Made by a program: the position numbers and the translations under genes
Shown here: in pieces, positions 1,102 to 59,238 of the stretch
Position numbering within the stretch: the first letter of the stretch is position 1
Layout of the letters: each line of letters opens with the position of its first letter
The notes under the pieces: generated by a model
What the model saw: the letters and a program-made list of their open reading frames with translations, nothing else
Database searches by the model: none
Told to the model about the DNA's origin: nothing
From: Marinibacterium anthonyi
GTDB taxonomy: Bacteria; Pseudomonadota; Alphaproteobacteria; Rhodobacterales; Rhodobacteraceae
Reading direction: 5' to 3'
Length of the DNA: 64,000 bases
Assembly (NCBI GenBank): GCA_003217735.2
Contig: CP031585.1
Span: 1,475,501-1,539,500, forward strand

Positions 1102-1877
1102 TTCATGCCCCTCGGTGCAAGCTTCATGTCGATGATCGCCGCTTTGAGATGTTCCAGCGTCGGCGCATCTTCGCCTGCGAACAGCACGGCGATTTGGGTG
1201 ACGTTCACAACATTGCGGAGACCGCCTTTCAGCCTCGCAATCGCATGCAGCGCGTCGATAGCTGCCGGATTGGCGAAGGGAGTGCCCTCAACCAATGCCG
1301 CAACGTCGGCCCTGCTGGAGTGCCGGATCACGACCGGGCGCATCATCCGACTTTGCAGCTGCGGCTTATTCTCAATGGAGCTGGGTAGGTCCAGATCTCC
1401 ACAGAACACTAGGTGAAACCGCCCTGTTTCCGCCGTAGCTCGCAGCCATTCGAAGGCTTCGCCGATTTGACCGGTCTTGCGGTTGCGCTGATTGAGATAC
1501 TGCGCTTCATCAACAATCAGCACGCGGCCTTGACCGATGTATGCGGCGATCTTGTCGCGCGCCTCGGAATGGCAGTTGAATGTTGGCTTCGCATACCCCC
1601 AGAGATTTGCAAGAGCGTGAGCGAAGTTCCACGCCGTACCCTCTCCACATGCCGCCTGAATATAGATCGCGTCTTGCCCTAGCGTCTCGCAGAAGCGCTG
1701 AACAGCGGACGTCTTGCCGGTGCCCGGTGCGCCAGCGATCATTGTGAGGGCTGGGCGATCCGCCGCATTTACCAGGTCGAGCGAACGCCGGATGTCCTTT
1801 GCAGTTTCCGTGTTTGCCCAATCGCCGATCCCGCGTTGGACAATGCCGGGATTGGCAATGCTTAGATGCTGTGCCAT
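1098..1877 (-). CDS. MuB-type AAA+ ATPase, transposition target selector
   Basis: A 259-residue ATPase of the MuB/TniB/ExeA group. Walker A is at residues 49-57 (GAPGTGKTS) and Walker B at about 119-125 (VLIVDEAQ), followed by a sensor-like stretch (FHLVFCGDLDLPSS). In the Mu system the B protein binds DNA with ATP, marks target sites, activates the transposase and gives immunity to self-insertion. The gene lies 67 bp downstream of the transposase stop in the same direction, as in Mu. The N-terminal 30 residues (GIVQRGIGDW) resemble the short N-terminal region of phage homologues. The length is a little under the 312 residues of Mu B. Confidence 0.9.
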   Translation of the reverse strand: MAQHLSIANPGIVQRGIGDWANTETAKDIRRSLDLVNAADRPALTMIAGAPGTGKTSAVQRFCETLGQDAIYIQAACGEGTAWNFAHALANLWGYAKPTFNCHSEARDKIAAYIGQGRVLIVDEAQYLNQRNRKTGQIGEAFEWLRATAETGRFHLVFCGDLDLPSSIENKPQLQSRMMRPVVIRHSSRADVAALVEGTPFANPAAIDALHAIARLKGGLRNVVNVTQIAVLFAGEDAPTLEHLKAAIIDMKLAPRGMK

Positions 1878-1944
1878 TGTTGCCTCCGTTCAATGTGAGG
1901 GCTGACGCCCTCGGTGAATGGCATGGGGGGCGGTGCAACGCCTC

Positions 1945-3903
1945 TCATGCCGACGAACCGCCTCGCGAGCCTTTGGCTGCAAGAGCGGCATCCATGTTCC
2001 GCAGGAACTCTGCGGGAATAGTTTGTTTCTCCTGATTGTCGCGCGGCGCGCGCTCGCGCAGCGGTGTACCGAACCGGCCGCCGACAACTTTTCGGGCCGG
2101 AGGCTTCGGCGTATCCTCGGGCATGGTCGCGGCGTTCAGTGCAGCCAGCGCCTCGCAATAGGATGCGTCATCAAGGTAATTGTTGGCCGCCTCCGCCGCA
2201 GCGACTGCTACACGAGCGGCCTTGCGGTTGCGCGCAGCCTCACGGATGCTGTCAACGCTGCCATAGGCCCCGGGTTTGACCGGCTCGATATCCCGGCAGA
2301 TGAAAACGCCGTCTTCATCATACGCCATGGCAGGCGCGTTGAAATCGTCGGGGTCGCGTCCCAGCAGAATGCGTTTCCCGGTGCCGTGGAACCGCAAAAG
2401 CACGTCTTGCGTTTCCGGCCCACCATAGAGCCAGCCATTCGCCGTCACCCGCCCAAACCGATCAACCGCGACCGGTTTCCAGATCAACCCGGCCAGATAG
2501 AGCTGATGCGCGGTCGGAAGGCGCACCGGGCGTCCGTCCTGCGCGCGCAGATCAAGCCCCTCGCTGAACACCTGATCATAGGACCGCCCGCGTGCGCCCT
2601 GGCTGCGCCGCCCGGTCTCGCTGTTGTGACGGGCAACTTCGCGCGCCAGAACGGCTTTTGCCGCCTCAACCGGAACTGGCACCACGTTTGGCGATGGGCT
2701 CGCGCCAGGCGCATGCCCCGCGTGCGCGTCCCGGAACTCCGGCCCATCGTCCACAGAACGGGACAGCGTTGCAAAGGTCCGCTCGGCAATCTTCGCCTGA
2801 GCGTTCTTCGGAAGGGCGAAATGCAGCTTGATCCCCATCGTCTTGCAAATGCCGATAGGCTGAACACCGTTCGCCTTGCCATTGCGGAACCGATACGCCG
2901 CGCCGCCCGCCACCAAATGCCCGGCAAAGGCGGAACCGTTGTCGGTATAGAGCCGGTCGAAGATACCATGCCGCTCGCAGACCCGCTTGATCAGCCTAAC
3001 CGTGCCCACCGCGTTCTCCGAAGGGCCAAGTTCCCAACCGAGAACCATGTTCGAAGCCACATCCACAAGCGCCAGCATGACAGGCCGAACCGCCTTGCCG
3101 TCCCCCCAGTCCACCCAAAAATCCAGTGTCCGACCGTCGAGCGATACCCATTCCATTGACAGGATAGAGGTCTTGTCGCGATGGGCCGGGATGCTAAGCT
3201 GCTTTGCGGTCTGATCGCGTCCTAGGCGCACAGAACGCCGTTGCGCTTCGCTTAACTCGTTCCAGCGACGATAGAAAGTCGGATAGGATGGCACCGCCCA
3301 ATCCATTGCCGGGCCTGCGTCTCGCACCCTGCGCCAAGCTTCTTTGAGGGGCCAATCCGGGGCTGCATCCCGGATCATGGTCAGAAAGAACCGCCAGGCG
3401 TCATCACTGATCTCGGCACGCTTCACCGTCGCCTTGTAGTCGTCCAGAAGCGCTGGGGCAAAGTTGATCGGATCTACCCCTTGAACCGCCTTTGTAAGTC
3501 GCTTCAAAGACGGGTCTGACGTGCCTTCCAACCCGAACCTCTCACGCACGAGCGCGAAGCGCTGCGCCTCTTTCAACCCCTGCGCACGCAGAGCCGTGAG
3601 CAGTCGAGCGATGGCTGCCCGGCGCTCCGCTCGCGCCCGTCGGGTTGGCGCGACCTCTTCAAGCATGCGGTGTGCGTCAGTGTTGTAGACACCCGGTTCA
3701 AGGTGCAGAAAGTCCATGTCGCGACGGAGGTATGCGATGCGCACTTCACCGGGTAGTGCGGAGAGAGCAACATATTCCGGTGAGCGCCCATCCTTGAAAT
3801 CATGCGCGATCTCGATTCCATTTACCCGGAGCCACCTTGAGGCCGAGGATCGATGTATCGGAATTGGGCCCAAGCCGAGGATGTCACGGACGCGAAGCAT
3901 CAT
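1945..3903 (-). CDS. MuA-type DDE transposase
   Basis: Using the ATG at 3903 this is 652 residues, close to Mu A (663). An N-terminal HTH-type end-binding region (residues about 1-70, MLRVRDILGLGPIPIHRSS) is followed by helical DNA-binding domains. An RNase H-like core begins near residue 245. Probable catalytic acids are D256 (VSLDGRT), D321 (YTDNGSAF) and E374 (AKIAERTF), spaced as in MuA. A beta-barrel and a basic C-terminal region follow. The start was chosen because it overlaps the upstream stop (ATGA) and begins directly with the end-binding domain; a longer frame to 4179 would run through the operator. Catalytic residues appear intact, so the enzyme is probably active. Confidence 0.93.
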   Translation of the reverse strand: MMLRVRDILGLGPIPIHRSSASRWLRVNGIEIAHDFKDGRSPEYVALSALPGEVRIAYLRRDMDFLHLEPGVYNTDAHRMLEEVAPTRRARAERRAAIARLLTALRAQGLKEAQRFALVRERFGLEGTSDPSLKRLTKAVQGVDPINFAPALLDDYKATVKRAEISDDAWRFFLTMIRDAAPDWPLKEAWRRVRDAGPAMDWAVPSYPTFYRRWNELSEAQRRSVRLGRDQTAKQLSIPAHRDKTSILSMEWVSLDGRTLDFWVDWGDGKAVRPVMLALVDVASNMVLGWELGPSENAVGTVRLIKRVCERHGIFDRLYTDNGSAFAGHLVAGGAAYRFRNGKANGVQPIGICKTMGIKLHFALPKNAQAKIAERTFATLSRSVDDGPEFRDAHAGHAPGASPSPNVVPVPVEAAKAVLAREVARHNSETGRRSQGARGRSYDQVFSEGLDLRAQDGRPVRLPTAHQLYLAGLIWKPVAVDRFGRVTANGWLYGGPETQDVLLRFHGTGKRILLGRDPDDFNAPAMAYDEDGVFICRDIEPVKPGAYGSVDSIREAARNRKAARVAVAAAEAANNYLDDASYCEALAALNAATMPEDTPKPPARKVVGGRFGTPLRERAPRDNQEKQTIPAEFLRNMDAALAAKGSRGGSSA

Positions 3904-4088
3904 TGGTCGTTGGCCCCGGAAGCTTTCAGGATGCGAGCAACCAACTCCTTTGCTTTCGGTCCTGTCCAAGTGCCCTTGAGCGCCTTGTTCGCATTTTGCG
4001 GTGCAACTCCATTGGCAAGGCACCACGCGCGCAATGATGTGCCACGCAACACAAACCCCGACCGGATACGGTTCTGGCGATCCTTCAT
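3900..4088 (-). CDS. Small Ner-like DNA-binding protein
   Basis: A 62-residue protein encoded between the operators and the transposase. The central part (TSLRAWCLANGVAPQNANKA) reads as a helix-turn-helix, followed by a basic helix. Position and size match Ner of Mu (75 aa), which represses the early and repressor promoters. The ATG at 4088 was chosen because upstream in-frame starts (ATG 4124, TTG 4160) lie inside the operator palindromes; a gAGGgt stretch lies about 12 bases before it, so the ribosome site is weak. The stop overlaps the transposase ATG. Equivalence to Ner is inferred from position; similarity is only general. Confidence 0.55.
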   Translation of the reverse strand: MKDRQNRIRSGFVLRGTSLRAWCLANGVAPQNANKALKGTWTGPKAKELVARILKASGANDQ

Positions 4089-4098
4089 CTTTTGCGCT

Positions 4099-4155
4099 AC
4101 CCTCGACCATGTGTTTATACCCATTCGAGGGTATATTACACCCGGATATGGGTAA
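4099..4155. promoter_or_regulatory. Tandem palindromic operators between phage repressor and early genes
   Basis: The divergent region contains the perfect 20-bp dyad TATACCC-ATTCGA-GGGTATA (4116-4135), then a second ACCC-N6-GGGT dyad (4140-4153). A degenerate third element starts with ACCC at 4099. Dyad centres lie at about 4105.5, 4125.5 and 4146.5, that is 20-21 bp or two helical turns apart. This is the layout expected for cooperative binding of the HTH repressor or the Ner-like protein to the early promoter. Binding is inferred. Confidence 0.55.
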
Positions 4156-4169
4156 ATCAAGGGGCTGAC

Positions 4170-4700
4170 ATGACGGCACCAGTTTTTTCTGAAAGGCTTC
4201 GAAGCCTGAAGGATGAGAAGAACCTTACGGTTCAGGAAATGGCCGACTTGTGCGGTATTTCGAAGCGAACCCTTGAAAAGTATATGCTAAGGACTGGCGC
4301 GGTCACTCCTGGCGTTGATGCCGTTGTTGCTATTTGCAGTGCCTTCGACGTCTCCGCAGATTGGCTTCTGGGCCTATCCACTGACAGCATCCATTCCCAC
4401 TCGGAGGTCGAGGCGACCGAAGTCGCTGCGAAAGCGGTACTTGAGCAGTTCATCGCTACAGTGAACTATACCCAGCAATGGGCGGAAAGGTCTCAGGCTG
4501 GCTCTCTGTTCGTTGACGGAAAGCTTTTTGGAAACGACCCGGCCGACTTGGCGAGTGACTATGCCTATCGGATCCTGAAACTACGCTCGGAAATCTTGGC
4601 AGGCCATGTAGGCACGAACTTACGGATTGGCCCCGCAACAGACGGTTCACGACCTCTTGTCTTGGACCCGCGCGAACTCTTCAAGATGGACAAGACCTAA
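4170..4700 (+). CDS. Phage c-type repressor, HTH_XRE protein
   Basis: This 176-residue protein is transcribed away from the transposase operon. Residues about 8-62 form an XRE-type helix-turn-helix (LTVQEMADLCGISKRTLEKY), ending in SADWLLGLS, the usual end of a phage CI-type DNA-binding domain. The C-terminal part is helical, with no Ser/Lys peptidase dyad visible, so RecA-stimulated self-cleavage is not indicated. ATG 4170 was chosen for the AAGGGG ribosome site 5 bases upstream and because it starts the HTH domain directly; an upstream in-frame ATG at 4092 lies across the operators. Position and orientation match the Mu c repressor, so it probably maintains lysogeny. Confidence 0.78.
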   Translation: MTAPVFSERLRSLKDEKNLTVQEMADLCGISKRTLEKYMLRTGAVTPGVDAVVAICSAFDVSADWLLGLSTDSIHSHSEVEATEVAAKAVLEQFIATVNYTQQWAERSQAGSLFVDGKLFGNDPADLASDYAYRILKLRSEILAGHVGTNLRIGPATDGSRPLVLDPRELFKMDKT

Positions 4701-4710
4701 GCCATGCGGC

Positions 4711-4728
4711 GTGCGCAGAAATGCGCAC
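4711..4728 (+). terminator. GAAA-tetraloop hairpin after the repressor gene
   Basis: GTGCGCA-GAAA-TGCGCAC is a perfect 7-bp stem closed by a GNRA tetraloop, starting 10 bases after the repressor stop. There is no T-run behind it, so it may be an RNA-stabilising hairpin or a weak terminator rather than a classic intrinsic terminator. Confidence 0.4.
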
Positions 4729-4744
4729 AACTCGCGCAACGCCA

Positions 4745-4910
4745 TGTTGAAAACATTGAATAATTTGCTGCAATAATGCCTGTCAGGCTTGGGTTTCTGG
4801 CGATTTTTGCCCGAAAAGTATCAAACCCCATGAAATCGCCAATCCGCAACCCACTGAAAACATTAAGTTCTGTTTTCTACAGGTATCAAACTGGGTGAAA
4901 CCCGTCATCA
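4745..4910. repeat. Prophage end repeats, putative transposase-binding sites and attachment end
   Basis: Two copies of GTATCAAAC-N4-TGAAA start at 4818 and 4883, 65 bp apart. Two copies of TGAAAACATT start at 4748 and 4855. All four share a CAA...TGAAA skeleton in the same orientation. They lie in noncoding DNA between the repressor stop and the first host gene, where Mu carries its L1-L3 transposase-binding sites. The phage end probably falls at a CA within 4906-4910. The identity of the repeats as transposase sites is inferred. Confidence 0.5.
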
Positions 4911-4972: not shown

Positions 4973-5815
4973 TCAGGACGGCGTCTTGCCCCGGTAGCGC
5001 CAGAAGCGGCGGATCTCGGCGTAGAGGTCGGGGTTCATGACGTGGGGCAGGTGGCCCCGGTCGCGATACCAGGTGACATCGGCGTTCCTGAGGCGCGCGG
5101 CAAAGCGGACGATGGCGGCCGAGGGGCTGACCGGGTCGTGGGTGCCGTGGAAGAAGCGCACGGGTGTGTCGGGCCGGCGGGCCTGGCGGGACGGGGTCCA
5201 GAATGCCGTGCCGATCCCGTGGAAGAACAGCATGCGGAAGGACGGGGTGATCGTCGGCCCGGCGCTGCGACCGCCGGGGTCGGCGGCCAGGGGCGGGCGC
5301 CTGTCGGTGCGTCCGAACAGCAGCAGCTGAAAAACCTCGAACCAGATCACGCGCCAGGGGGCGCCCGGATGGCGGCGGCGGATCTTCAGGATGTCGGTGC
5401 CCATCCAGATCACCGAAGCAAGCAGGTAGGGAAAGGGCGCCGGGGCCGCGATGGCGGCGAAGGTCACGTCCGGGCAGGTCAGGCGGCCGCGGATTTCGAA
5501 ACAGATGGCGGCGCCGGCCGAGATGCCCACCAGGTCGATCCGCTTGGCCGGGCTTTTGTTCAGCCGTGCCGCGATGCGCCGTCCGTTGGCGCGCACCCGC
5601 ACCGGGTGATCCAGCGCGCGGCCATCCAGACCGGGAAAGGCCAGTTCCACCAGCGCCGTGCCCGAGGGCAGGCCATCCGTCAGCGGGGCGAAGGTTTCCA
5701 GCCGGGTCAGCGCGCCGGGGGTCACCACCAGGATGCGCCGGGCCTGGGCCAGGGGCGTGCCGGACAGGCGCAGGCCGTCGCGGTCGAGGGGGCGTATGGG
5801 GTCCGGTGCGTTCAT
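4973..5815 (-). CDS. Alpha/beta hydrolase family protein
   Basis: A 280-residue cytoplasmic protein with an alpha/beta-hydrolase layout: a core strand (RILVVTPGALT), the nucleophile elbow GISAG (Ser as nucleophile), a late acid in HGTHDPVSP and a terminal His in DRGHLPH. A hydrophobic cap with FPYLLASVIWMG and FQLLLFG occupies residues about 145-215. The ATG at 5815 was chosen; an upstream in-frame ATG exists at 5851 but adds unconserved residues. It is the first host gene after the prophage end, and an 8-bp inverted repeat downstream (4916-4946) may be its terminator. The substrate is unknown. Confidence 0.85.
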   Translation of the reverse strand: MNAPDPIRPLDRDGLRLSGTPLAQARRILVVTPGALTRLETFAPLTDGLPSGTALVELAFPGLDGRALDHPVRVRANGRRIAARLNKSPAKRIDLVGISAGAAICFEIRGRLTCPDVTFAAIAAPAPFPYLLASVIWMGTDILKIRRRHPGAPWRVIWFEVFQLLLFGRTDRRPPLAADPGGRSAGPTITPSFRMLFFHGIGTAFWTPSRQARRPDTPVRFFHGTHDPVSPSAAIVRFAARLRNADVTWYRDRGHLPHVMNPDLYAEIRRFWRYRGKTPS

Positions 5816-5948
5816 GGCCCGATGGAGAGCGTCTGAAACGACGCCTGTCAAATGCGCAGGTGGCCGCAGGGCCGATCGCGGTGTGATTAATGGTAGATGT
5901 ATAGCATCCCTATATACGCAATGTCATGAATCTGTTACATCCGGGCGC

Positions 5949-6278
5949 ATGATCCACCGTCTTCTTCCTGCGCTGATCCTGCTGATGCCCGTGACCGGCC
6001 TGGCCAAGGGGTCGCCCCTGGCCGAGGTCATCTGTGACAGCACGGACCGGATGCGCGACCGGCTGGAACACCAGTTCGGCACGCGCCGGCAGGCCATGGG
6101 GCTGCGCGGCCCCGAAGAGGTGATGGAGGTCTGGACCGATGCGCGCGGCGACTGGACCATGGTGGTGACCTATGCGACCGGCACGTCGTGCATCGTGGCG
6201 ATGGGCGAGGATTGGCAGCAGACCGATCAGACGAATGGGCGCTCGGACGTCCCCGAGGGCGATCTTGATCCGGCCTGA
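5949..6278 (+). CDS. Small secreted protein, conserved hypothetical
   Basis: A 109-residue protein with a clear signal peptide (RLLPALILLMPVTGLAKG, cleavage near residue 20), hence periplasmic. The mature part contains two cysteines (VICDS and TSCIV) that could form a disulfide. A W-T-D-A-R-G-D-W-T stretch followed by G-x-S-C-x-V-x-x-x-G-x-x-W recalls a family of small periplasmic proteins common in Rhodobacteraceae whose function is not established. The gene diverges from the hydrolase at 5815, with a 133-bp AT-richer gap that should hold both promoters. No catalytic motif is apparent. Confidence 0.75.
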   Translation: MIHRLLPALILLMPVTGLAKGSPLAEVICDSTDRMRDRLEHQFGTRRQAMGLRGPEEVMEVWTDARGDWTMVVTYATGTSCIVAMGEDWQQTDQTNGRSDVPEGDLDPA

Positions 6279-6402
6279 CGGCAGGGATCGTTGTGAATCG
6301 TGAAACAAATGTGGCGGCAATCCGAAAAAGGGTGGACTTGATCGCCGTCCGGTCGTCTGATGACCGGATCCACCACGTTTTCATTCCTGACCGGGAGCTG
6401 CC

Positions 6403-57606: not shown

Positions 57607-57990
57607 TCAAGTCTGGTCCGGGCTGACCGGCAGGTCGCCCGATACCAGCAGGTCAAGCATGTGGGACATGTCCTCGATCTGTTCGGCCAGGATATGGGTC
57701 ACCGAATGGGCGCGCTGCAGCCGGCCCGTGACCCGCAGCAGCCGCCCGGCGATCACCGCGCGGCGGAATTGTTCGTAGATCTTGCGCCAGACGATGACAT
57801 TGACCACGCCGGTCTCGTCCTCGAGCGTGATGAATATCACGCCCTTGGCGGTCCCCGGCCGCTGCCGCAGGATGACAAGGCCCGCCACCGCGACCAACGC
57901 GCCTTCGGGCGGCAGGTCAAGCTGGCTGGCGGTCAGGCAGGACGGCGGGCGGGGCCACGGGGGGCCTTCGGGAACGGGCGTGATGAACAT
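57607..57990 (-). CDS. Orphan DnaE2-type OB-fold domain protein behind an SOS box
   Basis: A 127-residue protein matching the C-terminal OB-fold of DnaE2/ImuC error-prone polymerases: AVAGLVILRQRPGTAKGVIF, TLEDETGVVNVIVW, then AGRLLRVTGRLQRAH. The polymerase, PHP and finger domains are absent; upstream of ATG 57990 the frame is not DnaE2-like, so this is either a remnant or an independent small gene. A GTTC-N7-GTTC SOS box (58007-57993) ends 2 bp before the ATG, and no ribosome site is seen. An intact frame with an intact regulatory site argues it is kept. It is divergent from the ferredoxin gene at 58115. Confidence 0.74.
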   Translation of the reverse strand: MFITPVPEGPPWPRPPSCLTASQLDLPPEGALVAVAGLVILRQRPGTAKGVIFITLEDETGVVNVIVWRKIYEQFRRAVIAGRLLRVTGRLQRAHSVTHILAEQIEDMSHMLDLLVSGDLPVSPDQT

Positions 57991-57992
57991 AT

Positions 57993-58007
57993 GAACAAAA
58001 ATAGAAC
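57993..58007 (-). promoter_or_regulatory. SOS (LexA) box, alphaproteobacterial GTTC-N7-GTTC type
   Basis: On the minus strand GTTC-TATTTTT-GTTC fits the direct-repeat LexA operator of alphaproteobacteria exactly. A further GTTC follows after 4 bases. It lies just upstream of the DnaE2-domain gene start and about 108 bp from the ferredoxin start. LexA binding is inferred. Confidence 0.7.
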
Positions 58008-58093
58008 AAAGGCGCGCGCACGGCAAGTCCGCAGCGGCAGAGCGGACAATTGGGTCTGGCCCCGTCCGGCGCGCTTGTCTAGAGAAGATCTGA

Positions 58094-58438
<345 letters not shown>

Positions 58439-58446
58439 CACCCGCG

Positions 58447-59238
58447 GTGGCGCGGCGCCCTCCGCCCCGCACGTGGCCCCACTTGTGGCCCCGCACGTGG
58501 CCCCGCACGTGGCCCCGCACGTGGCGTCGTCAGGCTCGCCGCGCGCTGACAGGTCTGGGCCTGTGGCTGGCCGGCGCCTGTGGCGGCGGCGCGCAAGAGG
58601 TGGTGTCGGCCCGCTACGTGGATCCGGTGACCCGCTACGACCACGGCGTGCTGGGCGATGCGGTGGAATACGGCGCGCTGCGGATCGATGTCGCGGGGCA
58701 GGGGGCGGTGACCTTCCGCCTGCCGCAATCGCATGTGTTCGAGGATCTTTTCCCGCGCCTGGTCGACCTGGACCTGGACGGCCGCAATGACGCGGTCATG
58801 GTGGTCGAGACGGACATGGGCCTGGGCGCGGCACTGGCGCTTTACGGGCCCACCGGCAAGATCGCCGAGACTCCGCATATCGGCCGCACCCACCGCTGGC
58901 TGGCGCCCCTTGGCGCCGCGGACCTGGACGGCGACGGGCGGGTCGAGCTGGCCTATGTCGACCGTCCCCACCTGGCAAAGACCCTGCGGATCTGGCGCTA
59001 TGCCAATGGCATGCTGATGCCGGTTGCCGAGCGTTCCGGCCTGACCGTCCACCGCATCGGCGAAGACGTGATCTCCGGCGGCATCCGCGATTGCGGTGCG
59101 GGGCCCGAGGTCATCACCGCCGATGCCGATTGGCGCCGGATCATGGCCTCCCGTCTGACAGGGATCACCATAACCCCGCGTGACCTCGGCCCGATCACCG
59201 GACCCGGGTCGATCCGGTCGGCCCTGTCCTGCCAATAG
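58447..59238 (+). CDS. Secreted VCBS/FG-GAP-type protein with repeat-encoded N-terminus
   Basis: A 263-residue protein, starting at the GTG at 58447. A TWPR-repeat lead (residues about 8-27) from a 12-bp tandem repeat is followed by a signal-peptide-like segment (RRALTGLGLWLAGACGGGA). The body has FG-GAP/VCBS-type calcium-binding strands, DLDLDGRNDAV and DLDGDGRVELA, in a beta-propeller arrangement. No ribosome site stands before the GTG, so the true start is uncertain; translation may be coupled to the ferredoxin gene, whose stop is 8 bp upstream. The role is unknown, likely periplasmic or cell-surface. Confidence 0.7.
   Translation: MARRPPPRTWPHLWPRTWPRTWPRTWRRQARRALTGLGLWLAGACGGGAQEVVSARYVDPVTRYDHGVLGDAVEYGALRIDVAGQGAVTFRLPQSHVFEDLFPRLVDLDLDGRNDAVMVVETDMGLGAALALYGPTGKIAETPHIGRTHRWLAPLGAADLDGDGRVELAYVDRPHLAKTLRIWRYANGMLMPVAERSGLTVHRIGEDVISGGIRDCGAGPEVITADADWRRIMASRLTGITITPRDLGPITGPGSIRSALSCQ
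58469..58528. repeat. Five-unit 12-bp minisatellite at the VCBS gene start
   Basis: Units of GCACGTGGCCCC begin at 58469, 58481 (as ACTTGTGGCCCC), 58493, 58505 and 58517 (ending GTC). The exact 12-bp period keeps the reading frame and encodes the TWPR repeats. Copy number could change by slippage without disturbing the frame. Confidence 0.85.

Follow-up and report, generated by a model that had tools for sequence, protein, structure and literature searches.

A stand-alone OB-domain gene in Rhodobacteraceae that probably encodes a trans-acting subunit of a split DnaE2

A short gene in the DNA analysed here, a stretch of 64,000 nucleotides referred to as the window, encodes nothing of the damage-induced, error-prone polymerase DnaE2 (ImuC) except its OB domain. 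Probably DnaE2 is split here and the gene supplies its OB domain in trans, as the fourth subunit of the mutasome. Homology, complementary truncation of the polymerase, co-occurrence, LexA-type boxes, purifying selection, genomic location and comparison with fused relatives form the observed basis of this reading.

In a large lineage of Rhodobacteraceae, the imuA-imuB-dnaE2 cassette would have been broken into single genes, each carrying a LexA-type box, and dnaE2 would have been cut within the linker between polymerase core and OB domain. DNA damage should then release LexA from four promoters, such that ImuA, ImuB, the core (961 aa) and the OB protein (127 aa) are produced together. We infer that the OB protein joins the core non-covalently, perhaps by means of a conserved WPRPP tail from the old linker, and that it makes up for the core's loss of ssDNA binding. 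Its transcript is probably leaderless, with LexA covering the -10 element and transcription starting at the ATG.

If true, this arrangement adds an architecture (ImuA, ImuB, DnaE2 core and OB in trans) to those in the pertinent sections of a 2026 survey of mutasomes (PMC12926913). It would be present in about 108 of the 246 family genomes sampled, almost all of which belong to different genera, and would constitute a natural domain-separation experiment on the role of the OB domain in a C-family polymerase. The separate LexA-type box of each gene suggests that neither an operon nor covalent linkage is needed for such genes to stay together.

The stand-alone OB gene

The open reading frame is intact (Table 1). 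Its product matches the DnaE2 model NF004225 (1047 columns) only in columns 942-1037 (E 3.5e-31), as expected from the initial annotation, which had described the C-terminal OB domain of DnaE2/ImuC and nothing more. The next-best model is DnaE (E 5.9e-8), so the OB region of DnaE2 is preferred over other OB families. Pfam OB domain PF01336 is also matched (E 1.6e-12). An AlphaFold2 model consists of an OB barrel and a C-terminal helix (mean pLDDT 80). Foldseek relates this model to generic nucleic-acid OB folds (Stn1, RPA, AspRS), which is consistent with the assignment and not specific to it, and a sequence search returned no solved structure. The host genome contains no second copy of the protein.

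Table 1. Features of the OB locus in window coordinates
Feature	Position	Strand	Remarks
Stand-alone DnaE2 OB-domain gene	57607..57990	-	Encodes 127 aa; putative OB subunit of split DnaE2
WPRPP tail codons	57943..57957	-	Residues 12-16 of the OB protein; derived from the ancestral core-OB linker
LexA-type box GTTCTATTTTTGTTC	57993-58007	-	Separated from the ATG by AT (2 bp)
Predicted -10 element TATTTT	57998..58003	-	Within the LexA-type box; predicted from conserved columns
Predicted -35 element TTGCCG	58021..58026	-	17 bp from the -10 element; predicted
[2Fe-2S] ferredoxin-type gene	58115..58438	+	Divergent; positional marker, not part of the system

Homologues in 79 of 80 relatives have the same stand-alone form. 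They are under strong purifying selection, with a median dN/dS of 0.068 across 349 pairs. This bears on the suggestion that the gene is a decayed leftover of a full dnaE2 that once occupied the locus, a view prompted by its shortness and by the lack of a polymerase portion nearby. Conservation and the dN/dS median of 0.07 rule out a pseudogene, and the gene is present in about 110 of the 246 family genomes. A fused dnaE2 at the OB locus was looked for in relatives and not found among 80 loci; relatives instead retain the same short gene, its box and its ferredoxin-type neighbour. The probability of decay is accordingly close to nil.

Two short motifs distinguish the stand-alone proteins. The WPRPP tail is highly conserved among them (W 99%, P 96%, R 88%, P 97%, P 100%) and is missing from most fused DnaE2 proteins; the linker of a fused Albimonas DnaE2 has APWPRPPACL. 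Conversely, the C-terminal motif SRDF[H/R], reported for about 77% of DnaE2 proteins and thought to mediate protein interactions in the part of Timinskas et al. 2013 that treats it (PMC3919608), occurs neither in the window protein nor in any of the 77 solo OB proteins read. It was also not found in the split cores read. The missing SRDF tail of the stand-alone OB proteins counts against the split-DnaE2 reading.

The LexA-type box and promoter

The OB gene is preceded by a perfect copy of GTTC-N7-GTTC, the motif reported for alphaproteobacterial LexA (PMC8565304), which confirms the exact operator 2 bp before the ATG that had been noticed initially. This motif occurs three times in the window where 1.94 copies are expected, and a single box alone is therefore not improbable. 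Its significance derives from the conservation of both position and sequence across homologues. An exact motif lies just upstream of 77 of the 79 stand-alone homologues from other genomes, and 59 of these 77 boxes sit precisely 2 bp before the ATG. The stand-alone loci without a box are L025 and L079. These conserved short homologues support the earlier proposal of an OB module under LexA-type control, where LexA would be expected to bind the box directly.

The conserved columns also outline a putative promoter. The spacer of the box usually starts with TAT[TAC]TT among the 77 boxed loci, and T[TG]G is present 17-19 bp upstream of the box in 72 of them. The corresponding layout in the window is TTGCCG-N17-TATTTT. 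With the predicted -10 element inside the operator, transcription would begin at the ATG or immediately beside it. The initial annotation had correctly noted that a ribosome site is missing and had proposed leaderless translation as one explanation. The promoter layout accounts for the missing site. It suggests a leaderless OB mRNA that is repressed when LexA occupies the -10 element.

The truncated DnaE2 core

The host genome (6.8 Mb) encodes exactly one DnaE2, in a separate gene about 4 Mb from the OB gene. This protein of 961 aa covers model columns 3-939, ends in LSLKAHPMTLLRAGFTLAGGAIPR and lacks an OB domain. The core stops at column 939 and the OB protein starts at column 942, such that one ends exactly where the other begins. 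Judged by their alignments, core and OB protein are complementary pieces of one polymerase that was cut before the OB domain. The OB gene had been termed an orphan; this description does not hold, since another locus of the genome encodes its polymerase half, behind a LexA-type box of its own.

All 27 truncated cores read have an upstream box, mostly of the form GAAC-N7-GAAT, which is one mismatch from the consensus. The truncation spares the PHP and (HhH)2 regions, according to sequence coverage. Published models map the contacts between DnaE2 and ImuB to these regions in the sections of the 2026 survey devoted to them (PMC12926913), and ImuB could thus still recruit the core.

A passage of Timinskas et al. 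2013 (PMC3919608) notes several DnaE2 proteins without OB, and OB-less DnaE2 and DnaE3 proteins with no known separate OB exist elsewhere. The core may therefore not strictly need its OB domain, a point against the split-DnaE2 reading.

Distribution across genomes

We searched 246 Rhodobacteraceae genomes with the DnaE2 model and the OB protein, and 80 genomes were re-run individually. A core ending near column 940 is found in 111 genomes, and in 108 of these a short frame encodes a stand-alone OB. By comparison, full-length DnaE2 is the only form in 105 genomes, none of which has a stand-alone OB. Neither DnaE2 nor stand-alone OB is found in 19 genomes, and nine were left outside these classes.

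This tracking bears on a rival explanation, in which the freed OB serves as an SOS-induced factor in its own right, ssDNA-binding or accessory, that acts with ImuA, ImuB, DnaE1, RecA or SSB while the core functions OB-free. Its generic nucleic-acid OB fold would suit such a role, and OB-less polymerases are known (PMC3919608). In addition, one genome (G044) has an OB with a LexA-type box and no core. An independent factor has no need to accompany truncated cores, so the 108 of 111 versus 0 of 105 distribution leaves this explanation unlikely.

The OB gene of G044 (L241, C4:2082500-2084900) is intact, the genome is nearly complete and it contains imuA and imuB, with no DnaE2 core found. This case counts against the split-DnaE2 reading, as do three genomes with a core and no solo OB found (G037, G130 and G146). 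The latter assemblies consist of about 100-350 contigs, and gaps could possibly hide the OB gene.

Three genomes (G028, G189 and G241) have a solo OB plus a full-length DnaE2. Such coexistence would be needed if the OB fragment were a regulatory decoy that competes with DnaE2 to limit mutagenesis, as had been suggested at the outset. This idea fits poorly and is very improbable, because no full-length DnaE2 was detected in 107 of the 110 genomes with a solo OB.

A sample of the class (389 genomes, nearly all from other families) provided no recognisable solo OB among the matches listed, most of which lie in long frames. Two short frames were read (in G465 and G566), out of a set that also includes G413 and G457; in both, the end of the core still precedes the OB, and the G566 frame sits at a contig end. 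The G465 frame (L242, C1:3788500-3794500) encodes 183 aa comprising a DnaE2 core end, OB and SRDFH in a different family, and is by its sequence a frameshifted or broken DnaE2.

ImuA, ImuB and the scattered cassette

The initial annotation was right that imuA, imuB and the polymerase portion are all absent from the window, and all three are located elsewhere in the same genome. ImuB and ImuA occupy two further loci, which brings the mutasome genes to four loci in all, and every locus has a LexA-type box of its own. In 13 split genomes the four genes lie on one contig, and they are scattered in all 13 with no contiguous cassette; the core and imuB are 3-30 kb apart in four of these. Exact LexA-type boxes precede imuB in 30 of 31 cases and imuA in 29 of 31. 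In fused relatives, including the plasmid pDSHI03, imuA, imuB and dnaE2 usually adjoin, and no such box is found directly upstream of operon-type full-length dnaE2 genes.

Both imuA and imuB are present in 30 of 30 split genomes tested and both are absent from 16 of 16 tested genomes without DnaE2.

The ImuB protein of the host genome (L120:12871-14526) has 551 aa, compared to about 500 aa in fused relatives, and its residues ~160-205 cannot be aligned with theirs. In the split lineage, ImuB may have changed in concert with DnaE2.

History of the split

A ferredoxin-type gene lies at most 3 kb upstream of the OB homologue in 78 of 80 loci, and the distance falls in the same bin in 76. As this shared neighbour indicates, the main clade probably inherited the location from its ancestor. 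Just past this gene, window positions 58480-58525 contain a short GC-rich unit, gcacgtggcccc, repeated several times in tandem.

In a tree of cores, the main split clade is supported at 100/98 and fused relatives branch outside it. G158 also falls outside, and a fused paralogue from G241 falls inside. A single clade of all split cores is rejected (p-AU 6.8e-5), which counts against the split-DnaE2 reading. This topology requires either repeated fission or a re-fusion.

Two loci suggest how the gene may have been cut. Albimonas (L069) is the sole fused case among the 80 loci and lies at a different locus. Its dnaE2 has no imuB immediately upstream, is preceded by a box of the split-core type (GAACAAAAGGGGAAT) and ends in SRDFH. 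In G158 (L248, C12:4000-12500) the DnaE2 core (1627-4857) and the OB (5813-6370) are encoded by separate genes on the same strand. About 1 kb divides them, an opposite-strand ORF lies in this interval, and each of the two genes has a LexA-type box of its own. The G158 OB retains the SRDFH ending. This locus captures either fission at an early stage or a fission of independent origin. A plausible order of events is that the cassette was scattered, the linker was cut, the OB moved beside the ferredoxin gene and SRDFH was lost.

Two further loci deserve mention. In L261 (G072:C42:83000-84900) the solo OB reaches 372 aa, and a LexA-type box lies 5 bp before its ATG. A long insertion of low complexity follows WPRPPACVT, and HPRDQSKLLF persists as a relic of the DnaE2 tail; the stretch read contains no ferredoxin-type gene nearby. 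L153 (G241:C88) encodes the fused DnaE2 placed inside the split clade; this gene has a LexA-type box of its own, and the tail of its product is degenerate (GRNFR). Besides this paralogue, G241 contains a solo OB as well as a truncated core that lies at a contig end.

Relation to known systems

The arrangement resembles the ImuA-ImuB-DnaE2 (ImuC) cassette in its three components, in its LexA-type control and in having an OB homologous to the C-terminal domain of DnaE2. It differs in occupying four loci, in dividing DnaE2 into a core and a separate OB, and in losing the SRDFH tail in the main clade. The OB-less DnaE2 proteins of PMC3919608 are likewise truncated past the (HhH)2 region; unlike here, the passage on them does not mention a separately encoded OB. 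The survey by Timinskas et al. 2026 distinguishes 11 kinds of multisubunit complexes, and a split DnaE2 appears neither in its pertinent sections nor in a word search of the text (PMC12926913). A comparable case in those sections is DnaE2X, where iPolY and a separate ImuB-C likewise form a mutasome subunit in two pieces. There the two pieces are the equivalent of ImuB, and their separation may be ancestral, whereas here it is DnaE2 that is split, and its fused relatives branch outside the main split clade.

Cyanobacterial DnaE is also a C-family polymerase made from two distant genes, with the cut inside the core there and in the linker before the OB here. A split intein reunites the cyanobacterial halves covalently. 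This precedent (cited in PMC3919608) raises the idea that the DnaE2 halves are spliced in the same way. The N-terminal tails of the OB proteins and the C-terminal tails of the cores are mostly short and unconserved, with no room for intein halves, and the OB protein has no intein match, the core having been judged by inspection. Covalent rejoining is thus exceedingly improbable, and a non-covalent split DnaE2 is preferred.

A more speculative extension of the split-DnaE2 reading, which we consider possible but unlikely, is that the OB is a dissociable, separately dosed subunit that gates the mutasome. Its leaderless, LexA-covered promoter would then time or tune the core's stay on ssDNA, and the supply of a single small protein would control error-prone synthesis. 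The OB of G044-like lineages may serve another polymerase or ImuB directly.

No description of the split arrangement was found in the open-access text searched, and an earlier description may exist. The papers searched on Dinoroseobacter shibae, a laboratory organism, describe LexA sites and the plasmid cassette, and yielded neither the solo OB nor data on its induction. G028 (L154) is very probably this species, as its fused DnaE2 on C4 is identical to that of D. shibae pDSHI03 (L115). A split DnaE2 is encoded on C1 of the same genome, so that the two forms coexist in it.
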